Shown here piece by piece: positions 125 to 16,828 of a DNA stretch of 64,000 bases. Both the position numbers and the translations under genes were made by a program. Below the pieces are notes generated by a model, which saw nothing but the letters and a program-made list of their open reading frames with translations, searched no databases and had not been told where the DNA came from. Numbering within the stretch: the first letter of the stretch is position 1; each line of letters begins with the position of its first letter. Source of the DNA: Alphaproteobacteria bacterium (GTDB lineage Bacteria > Pseudomonadota > Alphaproteobacteria > Thalassobaculales > Thalassobaculaceae). Location: contig JAJEAR010000001.1 of assembly GCA_022822665.1 (NCBI GenBank), positions 1-64,000 on the forward strand, in the 5' to 3' direction.

Positions 125-511
125 CTATCTCGCCGCCGACAATCCCACGCTCAGGGTTTCGCCCTGCTCGACGGGCGGAGGCTTCATCCAGGCAATGCCG
201 CCCGCCTCGAATGTCACCTGCACGCACCCGGCCCGCAAGTGCAGGTTGTAGGAATTTCGGTCGCGGCCCAGCACCCAGGCCGTTCCGAGGGTCGGATGCC
301 CGGCAAACGGAAGCTCTCGGGTCGGAGTGAATATTCTCACCCGTGCCTCCCCGGAGCGTTCGTCCACGACAAACGAGGTCTCCGAGAAGTTCATCTCCAG
401 CGCGATGGCCTGCATTGCCGAGGCATCCAGGTGGCGTGCACCACGGACCACCGCCAGCTGGTTGCCTGACAACGGCGTCTCCGCAAAGACGTCGACGATC
501 GTACACTCCAT
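125..511 (-). pseudogene. Truncated PhzF-family protein (N-terminal half)
   Basis: This reads as the first domain of a PhzF-like isomerase/epimerase. Visible marks are the start TIVDVFAETPLSGNQLAVV, the segment NFSETSFV carrying the usual catalytic Glu, and FAGHPTLGTAW. Family members are about 260-300 residues with two similar domains. Here a TAG at 125-127 ends the frame after 128 residues, and the sequence beyond it shows no second domain in any frame before the window edge. I chose ATG at 511; GTG at 517 is possible. The gene is last in line behind the ABC-transporter operon and co-directional with it, so it may be co-transcribed, but no link to the pathway is evident. Most likely a truncated remnant. 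Confidence 0.6.
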
Positions 512-634
512 GGCCACCCCGCATTACCGGATTGATTCAAGTCGGTTCCTGTTGTCGGCAACCGGTTCGTTCCGGATGCAGGCGACGCGCAGTTCCCTCC
601 ACGCGTGACCGTTGCGGGTACCAGTGTGGCAGTG

Positions 635-1336
635 CTACGGCGCGAGGTAGCGTACCAGGTCCGGGTCGTCGCGGATCTCTGCCGAGGGACCGTCGAGCGC
701 CACGGTACCCCGGTCCATGACGTAGGCATGGTCGGCGACGCGCAGCGCCAGTTCCACGTGCTGTTCAACGATGACCAGGCTGATCTCGCGGGCGAGGCGC
801 TGCAGGCGCTCGGCGATCTCCTCGATCACCCCGACCCAGACACCCTCGGTGGGTTCGTCAAGCATGAGCAGCCTCGGCCGGCCCAGGATCGCCCGGCTGA
901 TGGCCAGCATCTTGCGTTCGCCACCGGACAGCGTGCCGGCCTGCTGACCCAGCCGCTCGGCAAGCTTTGGGAAAAAATCGAGCGCCATGTCGAGGCTGAC
1001 TGTTTCGGGCTGTGCCATGGTGCCGAGTGCAAGGTTCTCGCGAACGGTCAGCGATCCGAAGATCGCCTGCTCCTGCGGGACGTAACCGAGCCCCCGACGC
1101 ACCCGGTGCTCGGTGCCCTCGCCGGCGCACTCCTGGCCATCAAACTCGATGCTGCCGCCCATCGGCGTGATCTCGCCAACGAGCGTGTTCAGGAGCGTTG
1201 TCTTTCCCGCGCCGTTGCGCCCGAGAATGGCCACCGCGCCGATCCGAGGAGCGGTCATCGAGACATCGAACAGGACCTGGCTGCGGCCATAGCCCGCGGA
1301 AAGTGCGTCGACGCGGAGAAGCGGTTCGTCAGACAC
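635..1336 (-). CDS. Branched-chain/urea-type ABC transporter ATP-binding protein (LivF/UrtE class)
   Basis: One of the two cytoplasmic ATPases of a five-component importer of the branched-chain amino acid/urea/amide family. It has a Walker A GRNGAGKTT, Q-loop region GYVPQEQAIFGSLTVRENL, ABC signature LSGGERKM and Walker B LLMLDEPTEGV, then the H-loop in VIVEQHVE. The compact length of about 233 residues and the TVRENL/EQHVELAL pattern fit LivF/UrtE rather than LivG. I chose GTG at 1336, which overlaps the end of the upstream LivG-like gene by 8 bases, because the sequence before it in the same frame is not conserved and lies inside that gene. Last transporter gene of the minus-strand operon that begins at 5278. 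Confidence 0.9.
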   Translation of the reverse strand: MSDEPLLRVDALSAGYGRSQVLFDVSMTAPRIGAVAILGRNGAGKTTLLNTLVGEITPMGGSIEFDGQECAGEGTEHRVRRGLGYVPQEQAIFGSLTVRENLALGTMAQPETVSLDMALDFFPKLAERLGQQAGTLSGGERKMLAISRAILGRPRLLMLDEPTEGVWVGVIEEIAERLQRLAREISLVIVEQHVELALRVADHAYVMDRGTVALDGPSAEIRDDPDLVRYLAP

Positions 1337-2063
1337 GGGTTGTGTAGACCTCCTGAACCTTTGCCGAGCGTTCGATTTCCTCGACGGTGCCGTCATCCAG
1401 GATCCGGCCATTGTCCATGACCGTCAGCCGGTCACAGATCTCCTTGATGAAGTCGAGATCGTGCTCGACGATTACCATCGCACAGTGCGCGCGGATAGGA
1501 GCCAGCAATTCGCCGGTGGCCCGGCGTTCCTCCGGGCTCATCCCGCCGGTGGGCTCATCGAGCAGCAGGAGTTTCGGGCGTTGCGTCAACGCCATGGCGA
1601 TCTCGAGCCATTGCTGTTGCCCGTGGCTCAACTCGCCCGCCAGGTCGTCTGCCCGGTCGAGCAGCTGGAACCTGTCAAGCGTTTCGCTGATTTCTCCGTG
1701 CAGTGCTCGCCGCGAGTTCGACCTGAGAAGCCCCCAGATCGACCGGTGGGCCTGGAGCGCCAGCAGGACGTTGTCATAGACGCAGAGTTCCGGAAGCACG
1801 GCAGTGATCTGGAACTTGAGGCTCAGGCCGAGACGGGACCGCCGCGCCGGGCGCATGGTGGTGATATCGCGACCGTCAAACCGGATGCGTCCGTTGTCGG
1901 CAAAGTGGTCTCCGGCAATGGCCTTGAGCAGCGTGCTCTTGCCTGACCCGTTTGGCCCGATGAGTCCGTGAAAACTGTTGGACACGACCGAAAGGTCGAC
2001 ACCGTCGAGTGCCCTCAGCGCGCCGAACGTCTTTGCAACGCCCCTGACTTCAAGCAGTGCCAC
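1329..2063 (-). CDS. Branched-chain/urea-type ABC transporter ATP-binding protein (LivG/UrtD class)
   Basis: Second ATPase of the importer. Walker A GPNGSGKST, the LivG/UrtD-like insert around LGLSLKFQITAVLPEL, signature LSHGQQQWLEIA and Walker B LLLLDEPTGGMSPEE are all readable, with the switch His in VIVEHDLDFIKE. The SLKFQ..AVLPELCVYDN stretch is closer to the UrtD pattern than to classical LivG, which hints at urea or amide rather than amino acid transport. I chose GTG at 2063: a GGAGG lies five bases upstream, and the start overlaps the permease stop by 14 bases. This suggests translational coupling. Length is about 244 residues, normal for the family. Confidence 0.9.
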   Translation of the reverse strand: MALLEVRGVAKTFGALRALDGVDLSVVSNSFHGLIGPNGSGKSTLLKAIAGDHFADNGRIRFDGRDITTMRPARRSRLGLSLKFQITAVLPELCVYDNVLLALQAHRSIWGLLRSNSRRALHGEISETLDRFQLLDRADDLAGELSHGQQQWLEIAMALTQRPKLLLLDEPTGGMSPEERRATGELLAPIRAHCAMVIVEHDLDFIKEICDRLTVMDNGRILDDGTVEEIERSAKVQEVYTTRV

Positions 2064-3105
2064 CGGAACCTCCGTCGTCCGGTTTCGGGCGATCTCGCCA
2101 GGCATCCCTGATCAGGCCGAAGGTTCCGATGCGCTCGCGGGTCGAGATCAGGAAGCCCATGATCCCGGTGGGCCGGTAGGTCACGACGACGAGCATGATG
2201 GCCCCCAGCACAACCGGCCAGTAGGGCTTCAGTTCATCGATGTCGGACAGGTTGAAGGCGATCATCTCGATGGCGCCGACGCCCAGTACCGGGCCGAGCA
2301 GGGTTCCGACGCCACCGAACAGACCGTAGAGAACCGCGTAGGTCGATTGAACGATGCCGAGGTTGCCCGGGCCGATGAACCCTTCGTGGAAGGCGTAGAG
2401 TCCTCCCGCCAGCCCCGTGATCATGCCCGCGAAGGAAAACACCAGCGCCTTGAACCGCTGCACCCTGTACCCGAAGAAGGCGAGCCGTTCCTCGTTCTGG
2501 CGCATGCCCGCCAGCACCAGTCCGAACTGCGAGCGCACGATCCATCGGCTGGCAAGGTAGCAGGCGATCAGGAAGCCGAGGATGATGTAGTAGAAGGTTG
2601 GCCCCGGCTCGATCTCGTATGGGCCGACCTTCAGGAAGTCCCAGACCGAAATGCCGTTTGCGGCGCCGATCCACTGCCAGCCCGCGACCAGTCGTTCCGC
2701 CGCGTAGGACGCCGTCAGCGTGCCGAGCGCGACAAAGATGATCGTGGGCGTGCGCCTGCCGAGCAGAAGGAACCAGCTGATCAGGAACGCGCTGACCAGC
2801 CCGACCGCCATCGAGACCGGCACGATTCCCCAGATCTGGACAAAGCCCGCCTTGTTGGCCAACAGGGCCGATACATAACCGGCCATGCCGAAGAACAGGG
2901 CCTGGCCAAAGGTCATGATGCCCGAATACCCCCAGCAGAGATCGAAGCTGATGGCCAGGATCGCCAGCAACAGCATGCGGGAGGCGATGATGGTGTGGAA
3001 GTCGTTCGTGAGCAGGGGGACGAGCAGGAGCGCAACAAGCACGCCGACCTCGAGGATCGGCATGATCTTGCGCCGCTTGCGGAGCGGAGTGCCGGGCAGG
3101 GCCAT
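2050..3105 (-). CDS. Branched-chain/urea-type ABC transporter permease (LivM/UrtC class)
   Basis: Inner-membrane permease of about 351 residues with the LivM layout: a basic N-terminus, then multiple hydrophobic segments beginning near residue 17. The family signature FDLCWGYSGIMTFGQALFF lies near residues 54-72 and GLFGGVGTLLGPVLGVGAIE near the C-terminus. It pairs with the LivH-like protein at 4394-5278 to form the heterodimeric channel. A second possible start (Met15, before PILEVGVLVALLL) would remove the basic leader. The C-terminal tail after the last helix is hydrophilic. The gene sits between the substrate-binding protein and the two ATPases, so all components are on one transcript. 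Confidence 0.92.
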   Translation of the reverse strand: MALPGTPLRKRRKIMPILEVGVLVALLLVPLLTNDFHTIIASRMLLLAILAISFDLCWGYSGIMTFGQALFFGMAGYVSALLANKAGFVQIWGIVPVSMAVGLVSAFLISWFLLLGRRTPTIIFVALGTLTASYAAERLVAGWQWIGAANGISVWDFLKVGPYEIEPGPTFYYIILGFLIACYLASRWIVRSQFGLVLAGMRQNEERLAFFGYRVQRFKALVFSFAGMITGLAGGLYAFHEGFIGPGNLGIVQSTYAVLYGLFGGVGTLLGPVLGVGAIEMIAFNLSDIDELKPYWPVVLGAIMLVVVTYRPTGIMGFLISTRERIGTFGLIRDAWRDRPKPDDGGSGGTA

Positions 3106-3168
3106 CTAGTCAGGTCCGGGGCAGGACGGTCGCGGCTGCGGGACTGGCCCGCAGCCGCGTGCTCCTGT

Positions 3169-4392
3169 TCAACCGATGCATTCTTTTGGATCGACCGCCT
3201 GGTCTGCCTGGATGATGTTCCAGACACCGGACCTGGATTGCGCGATGTACATGTTCATCTCGCAGTGCCCGGATCCGGGAACCATCCGTGCGCCTCCACC
3301 CGGGCCCTGCTCGATCATGGCGTGGTCAATAGCGGCACTCGTCGCGTCGCGTGACAGGTCACCGTTCGTTTCGATCACGGCCGCCTCGTAGAACTTGATG
3401 CCCCGGTACATGCCGGTTGCCGCGGTTCCGGCCGTGAAGAGATACGGCGTATCCGGCCACATCTTGTTGTAGCCGGCGATGAGCTCGTGGGTGAACGGAT
3501 CATCGACGGTGTGGAACATGTCGACGCAGGAATAGACACCCTCGAGCTCGCGCGGGGCAACGTAGTTCACCGAGTTCTCGTCGTAGTAGACACAGCTGAG
3601 CGTGCCGCCCTTGTCATGATACCCGGCCTCGTACAGCTGCTTGGTGAATGCCTGCAGCCCCGGCGGGATGACGGTGTTGAAGACGTGGTCGACGCCATCC
3701 GACATGATCCTGGCGACCGTCGCCGAATACTCGAGCTGGTCGAGGGGGAAGTACTCCTCCATCACCACCTCGCCGCCATTCTCCTCGATCACGCGCCGCG
3801 CCCACTTGTTCAGAAGCTGCGGCCAGATGTAGTTTGCCGAAGGCATGGCGAACCGCTTCATGCCCTTTTCCTTGATCAGGTAGGGCAGCAACGCGCCGCA
3901 CTGCTGGAACGGCGTGGGACCCGTGCAGTAGAGATGCGGGGTGCACTCCTGGCCTTCGTAGAGCTGCGGGTAGATGTACAGCGTCTTGCCGCGTCGCACG
4001 ATCGGGTTCTTGATCGCCTCGCGCATGGCTGACGTGATGCCGCCCAGCACGACATCGACCTGCGCTTGCTGGATCAGGCGGCGGACATTGCCGACCGCGG
4101 TGCCGGGGTCGGACGCGGTATCCTCCAGGATCAGTTCGACCGGCCGTCCGAGGATGCCACCGGCGTCATTGATCTGCTTGACCGCGAACTGGGCGGTCTG
4201 CCAGTTCGAGTTGCCGCCCGGGGCGATTGCACCGGTGATGTCGGTGGCGATGCCCATCTTGATCGGGCCCGCCGCATGCGCCCAGTCGGGCGACAGCACC
4301 CAGGACGTTCCGACGGCGGTCCAACCCGCTGCCGCGAGCGCGCTGGTGCCGCGAAGAAAGGTGCGACGGGTCATGCCGCTGTGAATAGCCAT
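3169..4392 (-). CDS. Tat-exported ABC transporter substrate-binding protein (urea/amide type)
   Basis: Periplasmic receptor of the importer, about 407 residues. The N-terminus carries a twin-arginine signal (TRRTFLRGTSALAAAG) ending in an AHA-type cleavage site before AGPIKMGIATDITG, so export of a folded protein through Tat is expected. The body has the Peripla_BP_6 pattern: a first strand near GIATDITG, then NDAGGILGRPVELILED and the hinge region. The motif set is nearer to UrtA/FmdD/AmiC-like receptors than to LivJ, in keeping with the amidases and urease encoded divergently. A GGAGG lies upstream of the ATG within the end of the LivH-like gene. The exact ligand cannot be read from sequence; short amides, urea or ureido acids are the natural guesses. 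Confidence 0.88.
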   Translation of the reverse strand: MAIHSGMTRRTFLRGTSALAAAGWTAVGTSWVLSPDWAHAAGPIKMGIATDITGAIAPGGNSNWQTAQFAVKQINDAGGILGRPVELILEDTASDPGTAVGNVRRLIQQAQVDVVLGGITSAMREAIKNPIVRRGKTLYIYPQLYEGQECTPHLYCTGPTPFQQCGALLPYLIKEKGMKRFAMPSANYIWPQLLNKWARRVIEENGGEVVMEEYFPLDQLEYSATVARIMSDGVDHVFNTVIPPGLQAFTKQLYEAGYHDKGGTLSCVYYDENSVNYVAPRELEGVYSCVDMFHTVDDPFTHELIAGYNKMWPDTPYLFTAGTAATGMYRGIKFYEAAVIETNGDLSRDATSAAIDHAMIEQGPGGGARMVPGSGHCEMNMYIAQSRSGVWNIIQADQAVDPKECIG

Positions 4393-4393
4393 T

Positions 4394-5278
4394 CTACTTC
4401 CTCCCTGCGCTGATGAGGCCGTTCGGCCAGAATTTCACGATGATCAAGGCGGTGACGAAGACCAGAACCTCGGCGACGACGGGGCTGACCTGCTCGGCCA
4501 CGCCCGGAATCTCCCGCAGCCACTGGAAGCCGGGCACCATGGATCCGATCATCGCGCCACCGACGACCGGCCCGCTGAACGTACCGATGCCGCCCAGCAT
4601 GACCGAGAGGAACGCCTGCACCAGGAAACGCACGCCCAGGTCTGCGGAAAGCGAGAACAGGGGTACCATCAGTGCTCCGGCCAGACCGGCCAGGGCTGCT
4701 CCCATGGCAAAGGTCAGCGCGTAGAGGCGGGCGGTCGAGACACCCGACGCCCGCGCCAGCGCGGCGTTCTCCAGCGCGCCGCGGATCTGCAGGCCGGTGC
4801 GGCTGCGCGTCAGGAACATCCAGGCTCCGACCATCGTTGCGACGGTCGCGCAGATGATCACGGTCCGCCACACCGAAAAGCTGATCCCGCCCATCTGGAA
4901 CGCACCGGACAGCGGTTCCTCGATCGCGTAGTACTTTCCCCCGATCAGTCCGCGAACGATTTCGCGGATGATCAGCCCGATCGCATAGGTGGCAAGCATC
5001 GCGATGACGGGCTGGGCATACAATCGCCGGATCACGGTGCGCTCGACACCCGCGCCGAACGCTCCGACCACGAGCGGCGCCACCATCATGCCCAGCCAGA
5101 TCGGCAGACCCCATTCGCGGAACAGGAAGACCGTGTAGGCGCCGAGCAGGACGAATTCGCCATGGCCGAGGTTGAAGATCCCCATCAGGCTGGCAATGAC
5201 CGCAAGCCCTGAAACGACGAGAACCATGATCGATGCAAAGGCGGCAACGTCAAAGATCAGCTTGATTGCATCGTCCAT
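4394..5278 (-). CDS. Branched-chain/urea-type ABC transporter permease (LivH/UrtB class)
   Basis: First gene of the transporter operon, about 294 residues. It opens with MDDAIKLIFDVAAFASIMVL and the LivH signature GIFNLGHGEFVLLGAY, and ends in repeated hydrophobic helices with FLSVMLGGIGTFSGPVVGG. I placed the start at the ATG 5276-5278 because LivH family members begin just before this first helix and GGTGAGG lies upstream. The same frame stays open antisense to the amidase genes for another 2.8 kb, but that part is a shadow. The stop abuts the substrate-binding protein start. The gene diverges from the amidase/urease operon across a roughly 670-base spacer. Confidence 0.92.
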   Translation of the reverse strand: MDDAIKLIFDVAAFASIMVLVVSGLAVIASLMGIFNLGHGEFVLLGAYTVFLFREWGLPIWLGMMVAPLVVGAFGAGVERTVIRRLYAQPVIAMLATYAIGLIIREIVRGLIGGKYYAIEEPLSGAFQMGGISFSVWRTVIICATVATMVGAWMFLTRSRTGLQIRGALENAALARASGVSTARLYALTFAMGAALAGLAGALMVPLFSLSADLGVRFLVQAFLSVMLGGIGTFSGPVVGGAMIGSMVPGFQWLREIPGVAEQVSPVVAEVLVFVTALIIVKFWPNGLISAGRK

Positions 5279-5951
5279 ATGCGTGTGTACCTCACCGACC
5301 CGACGCGCCGCGCAGGTCCTTGCCAACACCACAATGCTGATCATGGAAGCCGCACACGTGCAAGTGACTCGTTGCGGCACTGCACAAACCGCGTGCCGTT
5401 TCAGAGCAGGTGCAGCGGATGACACCATTGTCACTGCCTGGCACCCTGTCACTTTCCTTGTTCTATACCTTATTGAATTAGATGGCCTATTTCCGGATCC
5501 AGTTCCGGCGTGGCCCCATGTTCCGTCAGGTTGAACGCGACCGGCCCGGTTCCCGTCGTCCGACACCCTTGCCGGTTGACCCCTGAACGTCAGGCGGTCC
5601 CGGAGCATGGTTTTGCGCAGTTCACAGAGGGCCTCGCCGCTACTCGCACGCAACCGGCCTGCGGGGGCCAGGCTTGGTTGCGACGCGTCGTGGATGGACC
5701 GGGAGAGCACCAGCTCCCCTGGTCCTGCACGGGCGTACCGCGCCTGTCGCTGCGGGACAAGCGGTCCTGACGGACACGGGTGTGGACGGGGACCTGCGCG
5801 CGTGCGCTTGCCGGCCTTGCCGGCGCCGATGTCGGGCATGTGGCGCACGGGACGGCAAGCCCGCCGCACTCTTTCCCGACCGGTCGGAAAACCCGCCAAG
5901 CTGGGGTATGGTACTGCAGACGCACGCGACACACCTGAAGGAGACTTCCAT
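5279..5951. promoter_or_regulatory. Divergent intergenic control region between transporter and amidase/urease operons
   Basis: Spacer of about 670 bases with no convincing gene. Both operons must start here. It contains a locally AT-rich patch (about 5455-5490) and a perfect short inverted repeat at 5420-5433, with another TGTCA at about 5446, in a position to bind a regulator controlling both directions. The far right part is GC-rich and open in several frames without family features. No regulator gene lies next to it. Confidence 0.4.
5420..5433. promoter_or_regulatory. Inverted repeat, candidate operator
   Basis: TGACA-CCAT-TGTCA, a perfect 5-bp palindrome with a 4-base spacer. A further TGTCA follows about a dozen bases on. 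The position between two divergent operons suits an operator for a dimeric regulator, but such a short palindrome can occur by chance and no regulator is encoded nearby. Confidence 0.3.
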
Positions 5952-6161
5952 ATGAGCGACTCCGTTCCCAAGCAGATCGAACCGTCAGAGTTGCTCGTAC
6001 TGGGCAGGACCGCGCGGCTGGAACTGACCTCCGAAAGGCGGGCAGTCGTCGCGCCCGCTCTCGACGGCATCCTGGGTCTTCTCGACGCGCTCGATGCTGT
6101 GGATCTCGGCGAGACCCCGCCGACCAATTCCTTCGATCCGCGATGGAGAGACCTGCCATGA
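5952..6161 (+). CDS. AtzG/GatC-like small amidase subunit
   Basis: A 69-residue protein beginning MSDSVPKQIEPSELLVLG and ending PPTNSFDPRWRDLP. It matches the architecture of AtzG, the small GatC-like partner of the amidase AtzE in cyanuric acid degradation: two short helices, then a Pro-rich extended tail with an F-x-P-x-W-like end that wraps the amidase. It has the expected length and overlaps the AtzE-like gene by the ATGA arrangement (6158-6161). GGAG lies ahead of the ATG (GAAGGAGACTTCCATATG). Such tiny subunits are often missed by annotation. By analogy it should be needed for folding or stability of the next gene product and have no catalysis of its own. Moderately sure, since short proteins give little signal. 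Confidence 0.75.
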   Translation: MSDSVPKQIEPSELLVLGRTARLELTSERRAVVAPALDGILGLLDALDAVDLGETPPTNSFDPRWRDLP

Positions 6162-7552
6162 CAGCGCTGACCGACATGAGCCTGCGCGATGTCGCGGCGA
6201 AGATCAGGTTGGGCGAGGTTTCGCCCGTTGATGTCACGCGGGAGTGCCTGGACCGGGCGGCAGCAACCGAACCCAGGCTGAATGCCTTCTCCTGCATCCT
6301 GGCTGACAGCGCAATGGCGGAGGCGAAGGCCGCCGAAGCCGAGATTTCCGCCGGCGCCTGGCGCGGCGAACTGCATGGCATCCCGGTCGGCATCAAGGAG
6401 CTCTACGACGTGGCGGGCGTGCCCACGACTTCCTCGTCGAAGGTCCGCGAGAACTGGAGCGCGCAGACCGACTCGGCGAGTGTCGCGCAGTTGCGCGAAG
6501 CCGGCGCCGTGATCCTTGGCAAGACCCACACACACGAGTTCGCCTACGGCATCTCGACGCCAGAGACGCGCAATCCGTGGAACACCGACTGTATTCCCGG
6601 GGGATCGTCGGGCGGCTCGGGCGCGTCGGTCGCGGTCGGCAGCACGTTCATGGCCATGGGATCGGACACCGGCGGGTCGATCCGTATTCCGGCCGCCGTG
6701 TGCGGAACCGTAGGGCTCAAGCCGACCTTCGGGCGGTGCAGCCGGGCCGGTGTCACCTCGCTGTCGTGGTCGCTTGACCATGTCGGTCCCCTGACGCGGA
6801 CGGTGGCCGATGCCGCGGTCTGCCTGAATGCGCTCGCAGGCTACGACCCGCGTGATCCGGGCAGCGTCGATATCCAGGCCGAGGACTACACCGCGGCACT
6901 GGGACAGGACGTCAGCGGCCTGCGTATCGGCGTTCCGACCAACTACTACTTCGACAGGTGCGACGCCGAGGTCGAAGCCGCCGTGCGGGCCGCCATCGAC
7001 CTGTTTGCCGCCGAAGGGGCGGTGATCTCGGATGTCGAGATCCCCTTTGCCGACCAGATCATGTCGGTCGAGTTCGCTCTGTGCCTGCCGGAAGCCAGCG
7101 AATACCACCGGTTGATGCTGCGCGATGACCCGGATCTCTACACCGAGGACGTGCGCACCTTCCTGGAGGCGGGCGAACTGGTGCCCGCGACCCGGTACAT
7201 CCAGGCCCTGCGCGTTCGCCAGCTGATGCAACGGGCCTGGGCAAAGGCCTATGAAGACATCGACCTGATCGTTGCGCCGGCCGTGCCATCGCCCGCCACG
7301 AGGGTCGGCCAGGAAACCGTGGACTGGGGCAACGGCGCCATCGAGCCGGTCACGCCGGTCTTCGTGCGGCTTTCCGCACCGGCCAATGTCACCGGCCTGC
7401 CGTCGATCGCCACTCCCTGCGGGTTTACCGAGGCCGGCCTGCCGGTTGCCTTCCAGGCCATTGCCCGGCCGTTCGGCGAGGCAACGTCGATCCGCCTTTG
7501 CGATGCGTATCAGCGCATGACCGACTGGGGCGAACGCCGTCCGGCGCTCTGA
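6158..7552 (+). CDS. AtzE-like amidase-signature hydrolase
   Basis: Amidase-signature enzyme of 464 residues. The Ser-cisSer-Lys triad is readable as Lys80 (HGIPVGIKEL), Ser151 (IPGGSSGGSGA) and nucleophile Ser174 (GSDTGGSIRIPA). Length and the presence of an AtzG-like partner directly upstream resemble AtzE (1-carboxybiuret hydrolase) more than GatA or generic amidases. I chose ATG 6158, which overlaps the upstream stop and has GGAGAG seven bases before it, over ATG 6143. Known AtzE acts on carboxybiuret, but no cyanuric acid hydrolase or AtzF-type allophanate hydrolase is present here. The real substrate is probably another amide or ureido compound delivered by the divergent ABC importer. 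Confidence 0.8.
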   Translation: MTALTDMSLRDVAAKIRLGEVSPVDVTRECLDRAAATEPRLNAFSCILADSAMAEAKAAEAEISAGAWRGELHGIPVGIKELYDVAGVPTTSSSKVRENWSAQTDSASVAQLREAGAVILGKTHTHEFAYGISTPETRNPWNTDCIPGGSSGGSGASVAVGSTFMAMGSDTGGSIRIPAAVCGTVGLKPTFGRCSRAGVTSLSWSLDHVGPLTRTVADAAVCLNALAGYDPRDPGSVDIQAEDYTAALGQDVSGLRIGVPTNYYFDRCDAEVEAAVRAAIDLFAAEGAVISDVEIPFADQIMSVEFALCLPEASEYHRLMLRDDPDLYTEDVRTFLEAGELVPATRYIQALRVRQLMQRAWAKAYEDIDLIVAPAVPSPATRVGQETVDWGNGAIEPVTPVFVRLSAPANVTGLPSIATPCGFTEAGLPVAFQAIARPFGEATSIRLCDAYQRMTDWGERRPAL

Positions 7553-7603
7553 AACCGCCAGGCGGGCACGCCTGGTCACGACAACACGGAAGGGACACGC
7601 ACC

Positions 7604-9118
7604 ATGGCGATCAAGAGGCCTACCACCACGCAGATGTCCGGGATCATCGAGAACCTGGGCATGTCGATGGACAGCAGGGAAGTCGATTTCTACCTGGAGA
7701 ACATGCAGGGCATCTTCGATCGCTACGACGCTCTGGACGAGATGCCCGACGAGATCCCGGCGGTCACCTGGCCCCGCACCCCCGGCCATCGCCCGCAACC
7801 CGAGGAGAATCCGTACAACGCCTGGTACTGGAAATCCGAGATCAGGGGCGCCCCCACGGGCAAGCTTGCGGGCAAGACGGTGGCCATCAAGGACAATGTC
7901 ATGGTTGCCGGCGTGCCGATGATGAACGGCGCCTCGACGCTCGAGGGCTTTGTTCCCGATGTCGACGCCACCATCGTCCAGCGCATACTGGACGCGGGCG
8001 GAACGATCCTCGGCAAGGCGACCTGCGAGTATTTCTGCCTGTCGGGAGGCAGTCACACGTCCAGTCCGGCACCGGTGGAAAACCCGCGCAAGCCCGGTTA
8101 CTCGGCCGGAGGATCGTCATCCGGTTCGGGCGCGCTGCTGGTGGCGAACGAGGTCGACCTGGCGATCGGCGGTGACCAGGGAGGCTCGATCCGCATGCCC
8201 GCCGCATATTGCGGGGTGTACGGCCTGAAACCGACCCATGGTCTTGTGCCCTATACCGGGGTGATGCCGATCGAGCTGACGATCGACCACACTGGCCCGA
8301 TGAGCCGGAACGTCGCCGACAATGCCCTGTTCCTCGAGGTCCTGGCCGGTGCGGACGGACTGGATCCCCGCCAGTACGACCCGCCGACGGCACCGTACAC
8401 CGAGGCACTGGGCGCGGGGGTGCAGGGCTTGAGGATCGCGGTTGTCAGGGAGGGCTTCGGGCACGAGAACTCCGAAGCCGACGTCGACGCGAAGGTCCGC
8501 GCCGCTGCCGGGAAGCTTGAGAGCCTGGGCGCCACGGTGACCGAGGTTTCGATCCCGATGCACAGCCAGGGCATCGTCGTCTGGACCCCCATCGCGCTGG
8601 AAGGCCTGCAGTGGCAGATGATGCAGGGGAACGGCTACGGCATGAACTACAAGGGGCTCTATTCCCCGACACTGATCGATGCCCATTCCGGCTGGCGGGC
8701 CAAGGCCGACGAGCTCTCCCAGACCCTGAAGATTTCAATGTTCGCGGGCCAGTACGGCATCGACGCCTACCGGGGACGGTACTACGCCAAGGCCCAGAAC
8801 ATCGCCCGGCGGCTGCGAGCAGCCTATGACGCCGTGCTGGCCGAGCATGACCTCCTGCTGATGCCGACCCTGCCGTTGAAGGCAACCAGGTTGCCAGGCC
8901 CCGATGACCCGCGCGAGGACACCTTTGCCCGGGCGTTCGAGATGCTCGCCAACACCGCTCCCTTCGACGTCACCGGTCACCCGGCCATGGCGGTGCCCTG
9001 CGGCATGTCCGACGGGCTGCCGGTGTCGATGATGCTGACAGGCAGGCATTTCGACGAGACGAGCATCTACCGTGCCGCGCACGCGTTCGAACAGTCGGGT
9101 GACTGGACGGCGATGTAG
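7604..9118 (+). CDS. Amidase, Rhodococcus AmdA/RhAmidase type
   Basis: A 504-residue amidase-signature enzyme with an extra N-terminal segment of about 80 residues before the core. The triad falls at Lys96 (KTVAIKDNV), Ser171 (SAGGSSSGSGA) and Ser195 (GGDQGGSIRMPA). These are the positions I recall for the amidase of nitrile-hydratase clusters in Rhodococcus (RhAmidase), so the two appear to align almost without gaps. Those enzymes convert varied amides to acid plus ammonia. No nitrile hydratase genes are in the window. A GGAAGGGA lies before the ATG. The stop is followed directly by the ureE reading frame, so this gene probably shares the urease transcript. Confidence 0.85.
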   Translation: MAIKRPTTTQMSGIIENLGMSMDSREVDFYLENMQGIFDRYDALDEMPDEIPAVTWPRTPGHRPQPEENPYNAWYWKSEIRGAPTGKLAGKTVAIKDNVMVAGVPMMNGASTLEGFVPDVDATIVQRILDAGGTILGKATCEYFCLSGGSHTSSPAPVENPRKPGYSAGGSSSGSGALLVANEVDLAIGGDQGGSIRMPAAYCGVYGLKPTHGLVPYTGVMPIELTIDHTGPMSRNVADNALFLEVLAGADGLDPRQYDPPTAPYTEALGAGVQGLRIAVVREGFGHENSEADVDAKVRAAAGKLESLGATVTEVSIPMHSQGIVVWTPIALEGLQWQMMQGNGYGMNYKGLYSPTLIDAHSGWRAKADELSQTLKISMFAGQYGIDAYRGRYYAKAQNIARRLRAAYDAVLAEHDLLLMPTLPLKATRLPGPDDPREDTFARAFEMLANTAPFDVTGHPAMAVPCGMSDGLPVSMMLTGRHFDETSIYRAAHAFEQSGDWTAM

Positions 9119-9151
9119 GTGCCGGGCGACGCGACATCGGGCGGAGGGCCG

Positions 9152-9607
9152 ATGGTGCTCTCTGCCGTGCTCGGCCGCACCGTCGAGCAACCGTGGCATG
9201 ACCGGGCCCATGCGTCCGAGGCAAGGGGTGCGCTGGAGACCGTGCGGATCGCGCGCGCCGACGCACCGCGCCGCCGGATGCGCCTGACAACGGACAGGGG
9301 AAGGGACGTGGCCCTTGCCCTGCCCCGCGATGCGGCGCTGGAGGACGGCGCTGTCCTGCATGCGGACGAGAGCCTGATGATCGTCGCCCGCATCGATGGC
9401 GGCCCGCGCCTGCGCCTGACACCGTCTGACGCCGCCTCCGGGCTCCGGCTCGGCTACTTCTGCGGCAATCTGCACTGGAAGGCCGACTTCTGCGGCGGCG
9501 CCATCGTCATTCACATGGACGGGCCGGAGGACGCCTACCGTGCCCGGCTGGCCGATGCGGAAGCGCTCTGCATTTTTTCGGTCGAACGCATGGAGGCCGG
9601 GCAGTGA
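9152..9607 (+). CDS. ureE: Urease accessory protein UreE
   Basis: Nickel metallochaperone for urease. Readable features are the N-terminal MVLSAVLGRTVEQPWHD, the peptide-binding-type segment RMRLTTDRGRDVALALPR, and LGYFCGNLHWKAD, which keeps the dimer-interface His of the GNxHWP motif. There is no His-rich C-terminal tail, so nickel storage is not expected. I chose ATG 9152, preceded closely by GGAGGG; a GTG directly after the amidase stop (9119) would add 11 residues. First urease gene in an unusual order (E-F-AB-C-G-D), overlapping ureF by GTGA. Confidence 0.85.
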   Translation: MVLSAVLGRTVEQPWHDRAHASEARGALETVRIARADAPRRRMRLTTDRGRDVALALPRDAALEDGAVLHADESLMIVARIDGGPRLRLTPSDAASGLRLGYFCGNLHWKADFCGGAIVIHMDGPEDAYRARLADAEALCIFSVERMEAGQ

Positions 9608-10254
9608 GCCTGGATACCCTGCGTGCCCTGCAGCTGGCCGACAGCGGCTTTCCGTCGGGCGCCTTCGCCTATTCATGGGGGATGGAGACCGCCGCGGAAA
9701 ACGGCCGGCTTGAGCGTGCGGGCTTCGGTTACTGGCTCGCCATCGAGATGCTCGGCCGCTGGGCGCAGTTCGACCGGGTCGTGCTGGCGGATGCCTATCG
9801 GGCCGATGACGAACTGGTCGTCGATGCCCGGACCGACCGTCTGTTCATTGCCGAACCGTTGCGGGTCCGGTCGGCGGAGGCCGGGCAGGCGTTTCTCTCG
9901 GCAACGGCGCGCCTGGGCGACCCCGTCGCAGTACGGCTCCGCGGGGCGGTGCTGGACGGGGAGGCCGCCGGGCACCTGCCGGTTGCCCAAGGCGCGGTGT
10001 TCCGGTCCATGGGACTTGACCTTGCTCCGGCACTGGCCGTCTCCGCCCACGCCGCGGCACAGGGACTGGCCGGCGCCGCGGTGCGACTGGGCCTTGTCGG
10101 AGCACTGGAAGCGCAGGGCATCCTGCGGCACCTGCAGCCGGAGCTGGCCCCTTTCACGGCCCCGCCGCCGCCCGGCGCGCTGCCCGGCAGCTTTGCCCCG
10201 ATCTCGGAAATCGCGATGATGCGCCCCGGCGACGGGCGGCTGTTTGCCAACTGA
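9604..10254 (+). CDS. ureF: Urease accessory protein UreF
   Basis: GTPase-regulating accessory protein that works with UreG and UreD to load nickel into apo-urease. It starts with the family hallmark LQLADSGFPSGAFAYSWGMETA and has an all-helical composition; length 216 residues is normal. The C-terminus includes SFAPISEIAMMRPGDGRLFAN, where UreF proteins contact UreG. The GTG start overlaps the ureE stop (GTGA), so the two are translationally coupled. Confidence 0.9.
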   Translation: MSLDTLRALQLADSGFPSGAFAYSWGMETAAENGRLERAGFGYWLAIEMLGRWAQFDRVVLADAYRADDELVVDARTDRLFIAEPLRVRSAEAGQAFLSATARLGDPVAVRLRGAVLDGEAAGHLPVAQGAVFRSMGLDLAPALAVSAHAAAQGLAGAAVRLGLVGALEAQGILRHLQPELAPFTAPPPPGALPGSFAPISEIAMMRPGDGRLFAN

Positions 10255-10264
10255 AGAGACACCC

Positions 10265-10960
10265 ATGAACCTGACCCCGACCGAAATGGACCGACTGGTC
10301 ATCTTCCAGGCGGCCGAACTCGCGCGGCGATATCGAAGTGAAGGCGTGCGCCTGTCGCTGCCCGAGGCCAATGCCCTCATCGCCGACGAAATCCTGCTGG
10401 CGGCCCGGAAGGGGCTGGACCACCCGGCGCTGGTTTCGCTGGGCGGAACGATCCTGACGGCAGAGGAGGTCGAGGCGGGCGTGCCGGACATGCTGCGGAT
10501 GGTCTCGGTCGAGGTCTCGATGGCCGAGGGCACCAAGCTGGTGACGGTCTTCGACCCGATCCCTCCGGGGCCCCGTGCGGCGCCTGCCCCGGGCGAGGTC
10601 ATTGCGCAAGCGGGAGAGATCGAGCTCAACGCCGGGCGCGAGGGCGTCGAGATCGACGTGCTGAACACCGGCGACCGGTCCATCCAGGTCCGGAGCCATG
10701 CCCATTTCTTCGAGGTCAACAGGGCGCTGCGGTTCGACCGGAGAAGGGCCTGGGGCATGCGGCTGGACCGCCCCTCAGGCGGCGGGGAACGCTTCGACCC
10801 CGGGATCGGCCGGCGCGTGCGCCTCGTGCCCTATGCCGGGACGCGCGACATCCACGGGTTTGCCGGTCTGGCCGAGGGCCGGGCGGATGACCCGGCCACA
10901 CGGGAGGCCGCGTTCCGGCGCGCCAGGGATCGCGGGTATCTGGAGGAGGACGCGTCTTGA
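10265..10960 (+). CDS. ureAB: Urease gamma-beta fusion subunit
   Basis: Fused small subunits of urease, 231 residues. Residues 1-100 are the gamma domain (MNLTPTEMDRLVIFQAAELARR ends before the 20th; LSLPEANALIADEIL; VPDMLRMVSVE). After a Pro/Gly linker, residues about 113-225 form the beta domain (GEIELNAGR, VRSHAHFFEVNRALRFDR). Such fusions are known in Helicobacter and some alphaproteobacteria. I took ATG 10265, preceded by GAAGAGAC, rather than the upstream in-frame start. It overlaps the possible TTG start of ureC. The beta domain keeps the SHxHFFEVN motif that contacts UreC. Confidence 0.9.
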   Translation: MNLTPTEMDRLVIFQAAELARRYRSEGVRLSLPEANALIADEILLAARKGLDHPALVSLGGTILTAEEVEAGVPDMLRMVSVEVSMAEGTKLVTVFDPIPPGPRAAPAPGEVIAQAGEIELNAGREGVEIDVLNTGDRSIQVRSHAHFFEVNRALRFDRRRAWGMRLDRPSGGGERFDPGIGRRVRLVPYAGTRDIHGFAGLAEGRADDPATREAAFRRARDRGYLEEDAS

Positions 10961-12660
10961 AAATGGACCGCGGCCAGTACGCGCGCCTCTACGGGCCGAC
11001 CACCGGCGACATGATCTGCCTGGGAGACACGTCCCTGCTGGCGGAGGTCGAACGCGACCACACCCATCCCGGCGACGAACTGACCACCGGGGCCGGCAAG
11101 GTCATGCGCGACGGCGAGGGGTTCCGCACGCGGGGCACCGATGCCGAACGGGCCCTGGACCTGGTCGTGCACAACGCGGTGATCGTCGATCCGGTGCTGG
11201 GGATCATCAAGGCCGACATCGGCGTTCGCCGCGGGCGCATCGTGGGTGTCGGAAAGGCCGGGAACCCGGAGATCATGGCCGGTGTCACGCCCGGTCTGGA
11301 TACCGGACCCAACACGACGATCATGCATGGCGACCGGTTGATCGTGACCCCCGGCGTGATCGAGGCGCACGCGCATTTCCTGTCACCCCAACAGGCGTAC
11401 CATGCGCTGGCCGGGGGCTGCACCACCATGATCGGGATGAGCCCCGGGCCACATTTCGACGTGTCCTGCTCGGGCCCGCATACCCTTGGCCGGCTGATCC
11501 AGGCCTGTGACGAGTATCCGCTCAATTTCGGGTTCCTGGGGCGCGGAAGCTCGAACACCGGCGCGGTGGCGGAGAGTGTTGCGGGCGGCGCGCTCGGGGT
11601 GAAGATCCACGAGGACTTCGGGGCCTCGCCGGCCGTGATCGACGGGTGCCTGCGCGCCGCGGATGCGGCGGATTTCTCGGTCCACATCCACACCGATACC
11701 ATCAACGAGTTCGGGTTCTACGAGGACACCATGGCCGCCGTCGCCGGCCGGACCATTCACATGTACCACACCGAGGGTGCGGGCGGCGGTCATGCGCCCG
11801 ACATCCTCGCCGTGAACGGTTTCGCCAACGTGCTGCCGTCCTCGACCAACCCCACCAACCCCTTCACGCCGGCGGCACTGGAGGAAGGGGTGCCGATGAC
11901 CATGCTGGCCCACGCGATGAGCTACGAGTTGCCGGAGGACGTGGCCTTTGCGGAGGCGCGCATCCGTCCGCAGACCATGGTCGCGGAGGACTTCCTGCAC
12001 GACATGGGTGCGATCTCGATCTTCGCGACCGACACCCAGGGCATGGGCCGGCTGGCCGAGAACGCGACCAAGGCGTTCCAGCTGGCATCGATCATGAAGG
12101 ACCGGACCGGTCGCCTGGCCGAGGAGAAAACGGCCCGAGCCGACAATGAACGCATCCTGCGCTACATGGCCAAGCTGACCATCAACCCTGCGATCGCGGC
12201 CGGAATCGATGCGCATGTGGGCTCGATCGAGCCCGGCAAGATGGCCGACCTGGTGTTCTGGCGCCGCGACCATTTCGCCGCCAAGCCGCAGATGGTGGTC
12301 AAGTCCGGTGAAATCGTCTGGTCAGTCATGGGCGACGGCAATGGCAGCTTCATCGGGGCCGAACCGCTTCTGCACCGGCCGATGTGGGGCGCGCTGGGGA
12401 CCGTGAAGCACCGCCTCGGCGCAACCTTCGCCAGCCGGCTTGCCGTCGACAACGACGTTGCCGGCCGCCTGGGTGTGCAGAAGGAGATCCTGCCGATCAC
12501 CTCGGTCCGGTCCCTTGGCAAGTCCGACATGATCCGCAACCGCGCCTGTCCCGACATTGCGGTCGATCCGGCCACCTTCGAGGTTCGCGCCGATGGTGTG
12601 CTGCTGCAGGCCGAACCCGCAACCCGCGTGCCGCTGGCACGCAGCCATTTCCTGCGATGA
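10957..12660 (+). CDS. ureC: Urease alpha subunit, divergent UreC
   Basis: Catalytic subunit, 567 residues, an amidohydrolase with a dinickel centre. The metal ligands are all visible: HAHF pair ([13 protein letters not shown]), the carbamylated Lys in GVKIHEDFG, the His of [11 protein letters not shown] and [14 protein letters not shown], and the Asp of [11 protein letters not shown]. The flap keeps the catalytic His ([19 protein letters not shown]) but the usual Cys before it is Ala and the next His is also Ala. The normally conserved GTGPA..TTCTPGPW stretch is replaced by a shorter [16 protein letters not shown]. So the enzyme is probably active but divergent, perhaps with altered substrate choice. 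GGAGGAGGA favours the TTG at 10957; ATG 10963 is the alternative. Confidence 0.88.
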
Positions 12661-13262
12661 CCGCCGCCCGCGTGGGCATAGGCGGGCCCGTGGGCTCGGG
12701 CAAGACGGCGCTGATCGAGCGCCTTCTGGAGATCTTCGCCGAAGAGGGCGTGGAAGCCGCCGTCATCACCAACGACCTGGTCACTGACGAAGACGCGGAA
12801 CGCCTGCGCCGCGGCGGGCGCCTGCCACCCGAGCGGATTCTTGCCGTGCAGGCCGGTGCCTGCCCGCACACGGTGATCCGCGAGGACCCGACACCGAACC
12901 TGGCCGCCGCAGACCGGCTGGACCGGCAGTTTCCCGAGCTGGACCTGGTTCTGCTGGAGAGCGGCGGGGACAACCTGGCCTCGACCTTCTCGCTCGACCT
13001 GGTCGACTGGTGGATGTTCGTGATTGACGTCTCCGGCGGCGACGACATTCCCCGCAAGCGTGGACCGGGCGTGGTCAAAAGCGACCTGCTGGTGATCAAC
13101 AAGATCGATCTGGCCCCGCATGTCGGTGTCGACCTTGAAAGGATGTTCGACGAGGCAACGCGGGTCCGTGGCAACGCCCCGGTCCTGGGCACGAACTGCC
13201 GCGCGGGCCAGGGTATCGGCGCGGTGGCCGCACGGATCAGGGACGCCGTGCTGTTCCGGTGA
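12657..13262 (+). CDS. ureG: Urease accessory GTPase UreG
   Basis: SIMIBI-class GTPase that powers nickel insertion, 201 residues. It has the P-loop [15 protein letters not shown], the Mg/metal-switch segment [11 protein letters not shown], the nickel-binding Cys-Pro-His motif ([13 protein letters not shown]), [11 protein letters not shown] as Walker B, and the guanine-specificity NKID in [14 protein letters not shown]. No His-rich N-terminal stretch is present. The ATG overlaps the ureC stop (ATGA). All motifs expected for a functional UreG are intact, which supports the neighbouring divergent UreC being matured with nickel. Confidence 0.95.
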
Positions 13263-14086
13263 ACACGCCGCCCGAGCCGGGCCCGTCCACCTCATCGGGC
13301 GCACTGTCCATGGACCTGGCCATCGGTCTGGGGGCGGACGGGCGCAGCCGTCTCGCGTCTCGCCGGGTTTCCTTCCCCTGGTCCCTGGGCCGCGGATACC
13401 CCGGACCGCCCGGGTCACCGGTCACGCTGATCCCCCAGGTTGCCGGGGCCGGCCTGCTGGCGGGCGACCGGATCGGGCAGCGCATTCGCGTCGAGGACGG
13501 CGCGGCACTGCATCTCGAGAGTGCAGGGGCGATGCTGACCTACGGGACGCCGGGCGGACAGGGCAGCGTTTCGGACTGGTCGATTGATCTGGGGCACGGG
13601 TCGCGGGCGGTGCTGCTCTCGGAACCATACGTGTTGCTCGACAATGCGAACCTGACCCTTCGACAGACGTTCACGCTCCCGCGAGCCTCGACACTGGTTT
13701 CCTGCGAGGGCGTCTGCGCAGCCTCGACGGGGAGGCGGTGCTGGAAATCCGAGACTGTCGTCCGGCGCCCCGACGGCACGACCCTGTTCGAGGACCGTCA
13801 GCAGGTGACCGGAGAGCTGCTGGCCCGGCTCGCCGATATGCCCGGCACCTGGACATCGTTCGGCACGGTGATGGTCCTCTCGGAAGACCCGGACGGCGCG
13901 CTGGGGATCATGACGTCGACGGCGGACAGGCTGGACGACGGCACCTGGACAGGTATCGCGCCGACGCGTGCCGGCGCCGGCGTGTGCGCGCGTGTGGCCG
14001 CCGGGAGCGGCCAGCAGCTTCGCACGGCCCTTCGCAGCCTCGCGCAGGCCGCGTCACGGATCGGCGGTGGGCGCGCCACCGGTTGA
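13259..14086 (+). CDS. ureD: Urease accessory protein UreD (UreH)
   Basis: Scaffold protein for nickel delivery to UreC, 275 residues, beta-rich. The central family block is readable: [50 protein letters not shown]. UreD is the least conserved urease accessory protein, so the position as last gene of the operon and the coupled GTG start (GTGA with ureG) add weight. After it the coding density drops, marking the end of the nitrogen locus. Confidence 0.82.
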
Positions 14087-15227: not shown

Positions 15228-15731
15228 GGCGGCGGGGACCGTATCACATCTCCTTTTGGAGGCCACACTGCGCACGGTCAGGGGACAATCCGTGCGAAAC
15301 CGGGGTGCCTGGCAAGACTGCCCCATCGGAACAGGCGGCGTATCCCGGATGGTTACGGCGCACCTGCCGGACGACAGATTCCACGGCCTGGTTGAATGGA
15401 CACCAACAGCCGAGCGCTAGGCCGAGACAACGAACCTCTTGCGCATGGCGGCTTGCACGAGTGCGTCCGATCCTGATTGCGGCTTAGCCGCTGGTTTGCG
15501 ATCATTGCGCCTGAGAGACGGCAGTAAGGTCGGACCAGCAACGGCATTGGCGCTTAGACTACAAGTTTGATAGACAACAGCGTGCGTGAGTTGGCAGGAT
15601 CAAGGCAGGGACGGCGATCAGCTACTCAGTCGTCAACTCGCTCAGAGGTGGACAACTTGCGGCTGTTGCAATTGGCAGGACCAGAGCGCAAACGTTATTG
15701 ATGCAAGCGGTTCGATTGTATGGACGTGTTC
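15228..15731. other. Stretch with no recognisable gene
   Basis: Roughly 500 bases between the frameshifted hypothetical gene and the insertion sequence. Short frames exist on both strands but none has a family signature or a believable start. Probably eroded DNA from earlier insertions. Confidence 0.4.
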
Positions 15732-16828
15732 TAGTGCGATGTCCCGCAAATACGTGCAGATAATCGTTCGAGTTTGGCAAAGATCGAGTCGGCCGTGGCG
15801 GCCCAGACGAACCGGGTGGCGTTGGCGTTGTGCTGTTCGATGAAAGCTTCGATCGTCTTGACGAGCTGGGGCACGTTTTCGAACGAGCCGCGCTTGACGG
15901 CACGTTGGCTGATGAGTCCGAACCAGCGTTCCACCTGGTTGAGCCATGACGCCGAGGTGGGGGTGAAGTGGAGATGGTAGCGGGGTCGTTTGGCGAGTCA
16001 GGCTCGCACCTTGGGATGCTTGTGGGTGGCATCGTTGTCGACGACGAGATGGAGGTCGAGTTCGGCGGGCGTCTCCCGATCAATGAGGCGCAGGAAGGCG
16101 AGGAACTCCAGATGACCATGCCGCCTGGAGCAGGTGCCGAGCACCTTGCCGGTGGCCACGTCGAGAGCCGCGAACAGGGTGGTTGTCCCGTGCCGGACGT
16201 AGTCATGGGTGTGGCCTTCGACGTAGCCCAGCCCCATCGGCAGCGTGGGTTGGGTCCGGTCGAGCGCCTAGATCTGGCTTTTTTCATCGACACACAGCAC
16301 CATCGCGTTGTCCGGGGGGTTGAGGTACAGCCCCGTGATGTCACGCACCTTCTCGACGAAGAACGGATCGTTCGACAGCTTGAAGGTCTCGCTGCGGTGC
16401 GGCTTGACGCCAAACAGCGAGAATCAGCGCTGCACGGTACTTTTCGAGACACCCTCGGCCTCGGCCATCAGGCGCACGCTCCAGGCGTTCGCATGGTCGG
16501 GCCTGTCCTGCAGGGCACGGGTGATGAGCCCCGCCACCTTCTCGTCATCGTAGGTCCGGGGCCGTCCGGGGCGCAGCTCGTCGTACAGGCCCTCGACGCC
16601 GCGTTCGAGGAAGCGGCGGTGCTACTTGTTGACCGCCGCCGGCGATGCTCCCACCCGGGCCGCCACATCGGCGTTGGTCCGGCCCTCGGCACAGGAGACG
16701 CTGATGCGGGCGCGCAGCGCCAGTGCATGCGGCATGGACGATGAATTGGTCAACGCCGCCACCTGACTGCGTTGCTCGTCGCTGAGGACCAGGGGTGCAA
16801 GCTGGCGACCGCGTGGCATGAGTGACAC
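15731..16828 (-). pseudogene. IS630-family transposase with four nonsense codons
   Basis: One continuous frame encodes an IS630 transposase: an N-terminal helix-turn-helix (TNADVAARVGASPAAVNK), a linker (GLYDELRPGRPRTYDDEK), and a DDE catalytic domain with [25 protein letters not shown] and the final Glu region QVERWFGLISQRAVKRG. In-frame stops occur at 16622-16624, 16424-16426, 16268-16270 and 15998-16000. By comparison with the family, three replace Trp (TGG to TAG/TGA) and one replaces Gln (CAG to TAG), so all are C:G to T:A transitions. There are no frameshifts. The protein cannot be made, so the element is immobile unless helped in trans. Confidence 0.85.
15734..15759. repeat. Left terminal inverted repeat of the IS630-like element
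   Basis: Begins GTGCGATGTCCCGC and continues AAATACGTGCAG. It pairs imperfectly with 16858-16883. The TAG stop of the transposase frame uses the flanking TA. Confidence 0.75.

Follow-up and report, generated by a model that had tools for sequence, protein, structure and literature searches.

In Pseudomonas sp. ADP, the plasmid pADP-1 encodes AtzG-AtzE, the 1-carboxybiuret hydrolase, in which a small GatC-family gene lies directly upstream of a GatA-derived amidase gene, and AtzE was reported to be insoluble without AtzG (PMC6219798). The part of that paper available to us also describes, in 2018, atzG-atzE-atzH clusters outside cyanuric acid catabolism, without atzD or atzF, some of them next to ABC importers and amidases. 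GatC-GatA of the tRNA amidotransferase GatCAB likewise pairs a small subunit with an amidase-signature partner, and in the amidase of Rhodococcus sp. N-771 (PDB 3a1i/3a1k) a GatC-like part is probably fused to the enzyme. Here we analysed a stretch of 64,000 nucleotides (the window; contig JAJEAR010000001.1, assembly GCA_022822665.1) from an alphaproteobacterium of the Thalassobaculaceae, which carries a related pair: a gene for a GatC-like protein of 69 residues (5952..6161, plus strand) and, overlapping it, amidA, which encodes amidase A (AmidA), an amidase-signature enzyme of 464 residues (6158..7552, plus strand). An earlier note on this DNA had described an AtzG/AtzE-like amidase pair outside a cyanuric acid pathway that may act on a natural ureido or amide compound. 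Our analysis suggests, with a probability of about 0.7, that AmidA and the GatC-like protein form a two-subunit amide hydrolase within a cassette for scavenging nitrogen from amides and nitriles, and that the pair does not serve cyanuric acid degradation.

Both open reading frames (ORFs) were found where the earlier note had placed them. The small ORF is preceded by the Shine-Dalgarno sequence AAGGAG at 5938-5943, 8 nt before its ATG, and its stop codon overlaps the ATG of amidA as ATGA, an overlap that is also present in the loci L072-L075. AmidA has an in-frame alternative start at 6143, which would fit as well; the ATG at 6158 is the more likely one. We then compared the pair with 39 loci that had been selected by two amidase motifs (GKTHTH and EFAYGIxT types), and not by the small ORF. 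In all, 71 stretches matched the motifs and 39 of them encoded a relative of the amidase; these are not a random sample, several of the contigs are short, and L072, L076 and L093 are apparently the same as genomes G001, G314 and G262. The six-frame open stretches of the 39 loci (8,763) served as the search set for the small protein. With the window protein alone, phmmer returned 27 matches (E<=1), and all 27 lay directly upstream of the orthologous amidase, ending between -39 and +6 nt relative to the start of the amidase match. A leave-one-out profile placed the small ORF upstream of the amidase in 29/39 loci (E<=0.01), and only three further profile matches were obtained at E<=1 (L094, L096, L097), each by another amidase of its locus. 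Non-conservation of the small ORF in homologous loci, which had been named as the observation that would undo the pairing, was thus not what we saw. A tblastn search of the plasmid collection gave no match to the small protein at E<=1; a protein so short and diverged requires a search at the level of ORFs.

The ratio of nonsynonymous to synonymous substitution rates (dN/dS) of the small ORF was 0.06 (NG86) or 0.10 (YN00) against L072, 0.11 or 0.31 against L073, where dS is saturated at 2.2, and 0.14 or 0.20 for L076-L079, while the pair L074-L075 yielded no ratio (dS 0). Values for the amidase were 0.05 and 0.07 (NG86), of the same order. The small ORF therefore looks to be under purifying selection as judged from its codons, and a chance ORF was rejected on dN/dS together with the conserved position upstream of the amidase. 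The alignment of the family, A2, has 27 rows, namely the window and 26 of the 28 small ORFs picked, and excludes two 50-aa Nocardioides small ORFs (L098 and L102). Its rows often end in a GETPPxxxFDxRW-like motif.

To place this small family, we compared the A2 profile with GatC chains of PDB structures, four of which were matched at E-values of 9.4e-6, 2e-4, 4.1e-4 and 4.5e-4, and a fifth at 0.16. The single sequence stayed below the GatC cut-offs, with 20.9 vs 47.1 bits (NCBIfam) and 16.9 vs 23 (Pfam). The predicted model of the small protein had a pLDDT of 81 and a pTM of 0.55, and GatC chains occupied Foldseek ranks 1-8. By profile and fold match, the protein belongs to the GatC fold family. 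AtzG of pADP-1 aligned with the small family in a collinear but weak manner (hhalign, E 1e-3, probability 22%), and the AtzG-like Pfam family was not among the matches of the small protein at E<=10; weak Pfam matches of the small protein, as of the N-terminus of the second amidase described below, were disregarded. Of the two likenesses previously proposed for this protein, GatC and AtzG, the sequence comparisons and the predicted model leave 'GatC-like' as the better supported name.

Many amidase-signature enzymes act alone, and the small ORF had no profile match in ten of the 39 loci (L080, L099-L102, L104, L105, L107, L108 and L109; in L080, 138 nt separate the start of the amidase match from the end of the contig). 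The small ORF might then be conserved but regulatory or vestigial, with AmidA acting by itself. We consider this very unlikely, as it has against it the dN/dS values, which are of the same order as those of the amidase, the conserved place just upstream with stops in the narrow interval given above, the GatC-type profile and fold match, and the insolubility of AtzE without AtzG (PMC6219798, in the part available to us).

AmidA itself belongs to the amidase signature family (PF01425, 388.2 bits vs a cut-off of 27). In alignment with AtzE and with the genome's own GatA, its residues Lys80, Ser150/151 and Ser174 are kept; we take these to be the positions of the catalytic Ser-cisSer-Lys triad. 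The best-scoring NCBIfam model of AmidA is an AtzE one, and its identity to AtzE is 36.7%. The AtzE cut-offs were nevertheless not reached (332.6 vs 425.75 and 348.5 vs 461 for TIGR02715/PRK09201), and no protein in the whole genome exceeded them. A 63-row tree, composed of the window and 62 of 120 amidase ORFs chosen by hand, with one AtzE only, placed AmidA within a clade of 26 rows (SH-aLRT 95), with AtzE and the genome's GatA outside. In a six-row alignment (A4), NMDEFA of AtzE and GatA is replaced by THTHEFAYG in the four clade members. This signature is partly built in, because the motif had itself served to retrieve most of the loci; L116 and L137 came instead from a plasmid search. Since AmidA is below the AtzE cut-off and AtzE falls outside its clade, we did not file it as AtzE: what holds of the previous label 'AtzE-like' is the descent of the amidase from GatA.

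The absence of a visible cyanuric acid pathway, which the earlier note had remarked on, was borne out. There is no AtzD-family match in the genome, although that family also gave no match in any control genome, and none of the genes read at 635-14086 was named as gatB, AtzD, AtzH or AtzF. A true AtzE within a cyanuric acid pathway was rejected by the cut-offs, the tree and the lack of an AtzD-family match; a barbiturase/ureidomalonate route was rejected as well, since no match to the AtzD/barbiturase family was found in the genome, with the control genomes equally silent. The window pair thus differs from AtzG-AtzE in its amidase, in its neighbours and in a small protein closer to GatC, and from the published atzG-atzE-atzH clusters in having no atzH beside it; neither a link to nitrile hydratase nor a fused sister domain is described for those clusters in the available part of the source. 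A single AtzH-like match was obtained in the genome, on contig C52 (L114, about 4570-6235), where it lies beside an amidase that is 30.8% identical to AtzE. Because of this low identity, L114 was not read as a second AtzGEH.

Given the kinship of the two proteins with GatC and GatA, the pair could in principle serve the tRNA amidotransferase as a further GatCA module. This has next to nothing to recommend it beyond that kinship: AmidA does not reach the GatA cut-off (TIGR00132, 304.9 vs 481.1), a GatA that exceeds the cut-off is encoded on contig C15 of the same genome (552.1 bits), where the ORF just upstream reads as GatC by eye, and GatB was not seen among the genes read beside the window pair. 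An extra GatCAB module was rejected on the first two of these grounds.

Directly after the pair, the operon encodes a second amidase, AmidB (504 aa, 7604..9118, plus strand), which the earlier note, correct in naming an importer and urease as flanks, had left unmentioned. AmidB is of the PRK07235 or Rhodococcus N-771 type (814.7 vs a cut-off of 545), is about 32% identical to AmidA, and has the N-771 amidase as its closest structure by sequence (PDB 3a1k, 500 bits). The model of the small protein aligned with residues 2-67 of the N-771 amidase (Z 5.0-5.1, rmsd 5.3, 63 residues), a match that ranked next to those with GatC chains. The profile of the small family was collinear with the N-terminus of AmidB (hhalign, E 4e-4, probability 34%); this comparison is weak alone, and the fused domain is therefore argued from the fold match. 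Judging by these models, the operon probably specifies two forms of amidase, one whose GatC-like subunit is a protein of its own and one in which that subunit is fused.

The surroundings of the pair in its relatives provided the evidence for the kind of substrate. Genes for nitrile hydratase (NHase) beta, alpha and accessory proteins lie directly beside gatC-amidA in L086 (Pseudomonas oleovorans) and in L094 and L095 (Pseudonocardia), and the same kinds of gene directly adjoin the pair on the plasmids of L116 and L137 (R. pyridinivorans) and L138 (R. opacus, a record without annotation), which makes six loci with direct adjacency. In L097 (Pseudonocardia), NHase is 2.7 kb from the pair, on the other strand and beside another amidase. 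Out of 11 plasmid relatives listed, the surroundings of six with at least 49% identity were read (H1, H2, H3, H5, H6, H8); three of these, the R. pyridinivorans and R. opacus plasmids just named, had NHase directly beside the pair and three were without it. No NHase was present in the surroundings of the more distant plasmid relatives H13, H14 and H16 (43-44%). H14, from a Corynebacterium plasmid, adjoins a gene for an AmiS/UreI-type transporter, and its small upstream ORF fell below the profile list. Importer genes at least 50% identical to those of the window (at least one gene) were present in 16/39 loci, and AmidB in 4/39; 7/39, counting L073 itself, had a nitrilase-superfamily gene with 60% identity or more to the one in L073. 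The amidase of L082, beside an importer, exceeds the cut-off for indoleacetamide hydrolase (587.6 vs 532). The NHase alpha subunit was found in 12/13 genomes with the pair; this is weak support because the subunit is common in the class (142/385), and the comparison is confounded by class, genome size and the choice of genomes. Taken together, the neighbourhoods point to amides, some of them nitrile-derived. Of the two substrate classes proposed before, the amide is the better supported, as members of the clade adjoin NHase, and the ureido compound less so.

Five genes of an ABC importer occupy 635-5278 on the minus strand and point away from the gatC-amidA pair. They encode a UrtB-like permease (294 aa, 4394..5278), which has homologs beside amidA and is divergent from the amidase operon; a UrtA-like substrate-binding protein (3169..4392; TIGR03407, 198.5 vs 492.75, below the urea-specific cut-off); a UrtC-like permease (2050..3105; TIGR03408, 146.7 vs 296.2); and UrtD-like (1329..2105; TIGR03411, 250.3 vs 304.1) and UrtE-like (635..1411; TIGR03410, 223.4 vs 285.8) ATPases. 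No binding protein in the genome exceeds the urea-specific cut-off of TIGR03407, and the importer may for this reason serve amides in addition to urea. Earlier work interpreted Urt-like importers beside formamidase or aliphatic amidase genes as importers of amides (PMC3098086, PMC13209695; both consulted in part). Those clusters share with the window a urea-type five-gene importer beside amide hydrolases, but the hydrolases described there are of the AmiE/FmdA types and not an amidase-signature pair.

A urease operon (9119-14086, plus strand throughout) follows AmidB. It comprises the accessory genes ureE (9119..9607, Pfam UreE_N) and ureF (9604..10254, Pfam UreF), ureAB for the fused gamma/beta subunit (10244..10960; NF009671, 295.7 vs a cut-off of 243), ureC for the alpha subunit (10957..12660), the accessory GTPase gene ureG (12657..13262, with the start set by eye at the ATG of MTAARV and the search made from 12639) and the accessory gene ureD (13259..14086, Pfam UreD). 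Among the urease-alpha domain matches of the genome, UreC alone is full-length; a partial match of 42 positions on contig C40 is also over the cut-off. This arrangement could suit another substrate, in that the pair would attack a ureido compound (oxalurate-, biuret- or acylurea-like) and free urea for the urease of its own operon. The importer resembles UrtABCDE, the best NCBIfam model of AmidA is the AtzE one, and the same arrangement with urease recurs in L073. In contrast, the survey of neighbourhoods requested in the earlier note found urease beside amidA in 2/39 loci only, namely L072, from the same genus, and L073, a metagenome-assembled genome (MAG) labelled Marinibacterium, against the 16 loci with importer genes, and the six loci with NHase directly beside the pair, the AtzE score under the cut-off, THTHEF in place of the NMDEF of AtzE and GatA, and the fact that no gene read in the locus was named as AtzH or AtzF all speak against it. 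A ureido substrate thus suits the window and fits the wider clade less well, and we regard it as unlikely.

Several observations nevertheless weigh against an amide hydrolase of two subunits in a cassette for amides and nitriles. A search of all 64 kb of the window for NHase gave no match (best E 0.35); the genome's NHase alpha gene sits on a different contig, the part of that contig which was read holds no relative of AmidA, and the frequency of this gene in the class, given above, lessens its value as a companion. The nearest relatives of the window carry the importer and nitrilase beside the pair, and not NHase, so that substrates may differ within the clade. The urease in the same operon and the urea-type importer are compatible with a ureido substrate. 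As to the small protein, ten loci gave no profile match, the Foldseek E-values of its model are weak (best 0.032), and a Z of about 5 is modest for a small helical protein and can reflect a common arrangement. In the tree, finally, AtzE and GatA sit on long branches that group together, and the program warns of possible false joining.

On the computed features, that is the pairing and its conservation, the GatC-like profile and fold match, the clade, the catalytic positions and the neighbourhoods, we infer the following scheme for an amide hydrolase. The two genes would give one enzyme, made of a GatA-derived amidase-signature hydrolase and a GatC-like non-catalytic subunit. The GatC-like subunit would be made by coupled translation and, by analogy with GatCAB and AtzEG, would clasp AmidA as GatC does GatA and AtzG does AtzE. 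AmidA, with its Ser-cisSer-Lys triad, would cleave an imported or nitrile-derived amide to a carboxylate and ammonia, and an importer of the amide/urea type would supply amides, perhaps also urea. AmidB, with a GatC-like domain fused at its N-terminus, may hydrolyse amides as well. The ancestral cassette would have included a nitrilase-superfamily enzyme, and in the lineage of the window the urease could use urea imported by the same importer or freed from ureido substrates. The complex, the reaction, the substrate class and the specificity of the importer are put forward here as the interpretation that seems to fit these features.

The putative loss of the nitrilase is seen as a scar after urtE. 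In L073, the nitrilase-superfamily gene that follows the importer genes is intact (2246-3127). At 527..595 of the window, on the minus strand, a tblastn search with this gene matched N-terminal codons of a nitrilase-superfamily gene, with E-values of 0.001 (first 3 kb of the window, 6.5 kb target), 0.012 (whole window) and 2e-6 (sister L072, where the scar lies around 4330-4450). In both the window and L072 the scar follows urtE and is itself followed by a gene that is PhzF-like by eye. The PhzF-like ORF of the window (125-517, minus strand) seems shortened relative to the 304-aa version in L072 (3485-4399). Downstream of the urease operon, ORFs that are transposase-like by eye lie at 15731-16237 (minus strand) and 17001-18000, and the GC content falls to 0.447.

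A second, diverged cassette is present in the same genome (L050, contig C73, 27000-41725). Its Urt-like importer is 30-39% identical to that of the window, its amidase is 44% identical to AmidA and has a weak GatC-like ORF (E 0.043), and its nitrilase-type gene, directly after the amidase and the more distant importer, is 67% identical to that of L073. Within the same class and family, a small GatC-like ORF also lies directly upstream of other amidase-signature genes (L064-L070, and by eye L051-L061); by profile at E<=0.01 this holds for 9/22 loci (L050-L071), of which L062 and L063 are orthologs, and by eye for more. The pairing of GatC-like ORFs with amidase-signature genes thus looks general. 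Beside the cassette of genome G314, L062 encodes an N-carbamoylputrescine amidase (10801-11703; 445.2 vs a cut-off of 410.25). In Pseudonocardia, a second, 42% identical amidase lies directly beside NHase (L094 13518-14870, L097 3723-5117), and these second amidases have their own GatC-like profile match nearby. The gatC-amidase-NHase genes of P. oleovorans (L086 9690-13353; also L084) are situated between related ORFs of 975-988 aa that are transposase-like by eye. A MAG contig of Aquabacterium carries the gatC-amidase stretch of L086 with 99.9% identity, which suggests recent transfer or contamination.

These comparisons raise the question of how much has been recognised before. Both parts of AceAB, the acetamiprid amidase of Pigmentiphaga sp. 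D-2, are reportedly needed. Its two-letter name, under which it appears in the available part of one report, suggests a two-gene amidase (PMC10608976). AceAB is a possible precedent, and a GatC-like small part in it could reduce the novelty of the present pair. GatA-like amidohydrolases serve organic nitrogen use in ammonia-oxidising archaea too, and are likewise GatA-derived, but they lie beside the biuret hydrolase gene biuH and have no GatC-like partner in the part of the source consulted (PMC12625717). AtzGEH clusters outside cyanuric acid degradation are already known, and we found no earlier report of a link to nitriles and amides. Nor did our search of the open-licence literature bring up a paper that describes a GatC-like subunit for amidases linked to NHase, or a split and fused pair. 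In the plasmid records read, the subunit of about 65 aa is 'hypothetical' or unannotated. A broader view would be that a guild of nitrile- and amide-degrading operons in Pseudomonadota and Actinomycetota has an obligate two-subunit amidase whose GatC-like subunit of this size was overlooked, that in the N-771 amidase the same subunit is present in fused form as the N-terminal domain, and that the window operon keeps both forms. We hold this view tentatively, at somewhat less than even odds, because AceAB may be a precedent and the NHase of L097 is not directly adjacent.

In summary, our results suggest that a GatC-like protein and a GatA-derived amidase, conserved side by side, may act as one enzyme in the use of amides. 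If this is true, NHase-linked amidases of the clade would need to be expressed with the small subunit, and its absence could be the reason where the amidase by itself shows weak activity or none. The split and the fused form of the same subunit within one operon would offer a pair that can be tested directly. Descent from the tRNA amidotransferase GatCA would then extend beyond one herbicide enzyme to the ordinary scavenging of nitrogen from amides and nitriles.

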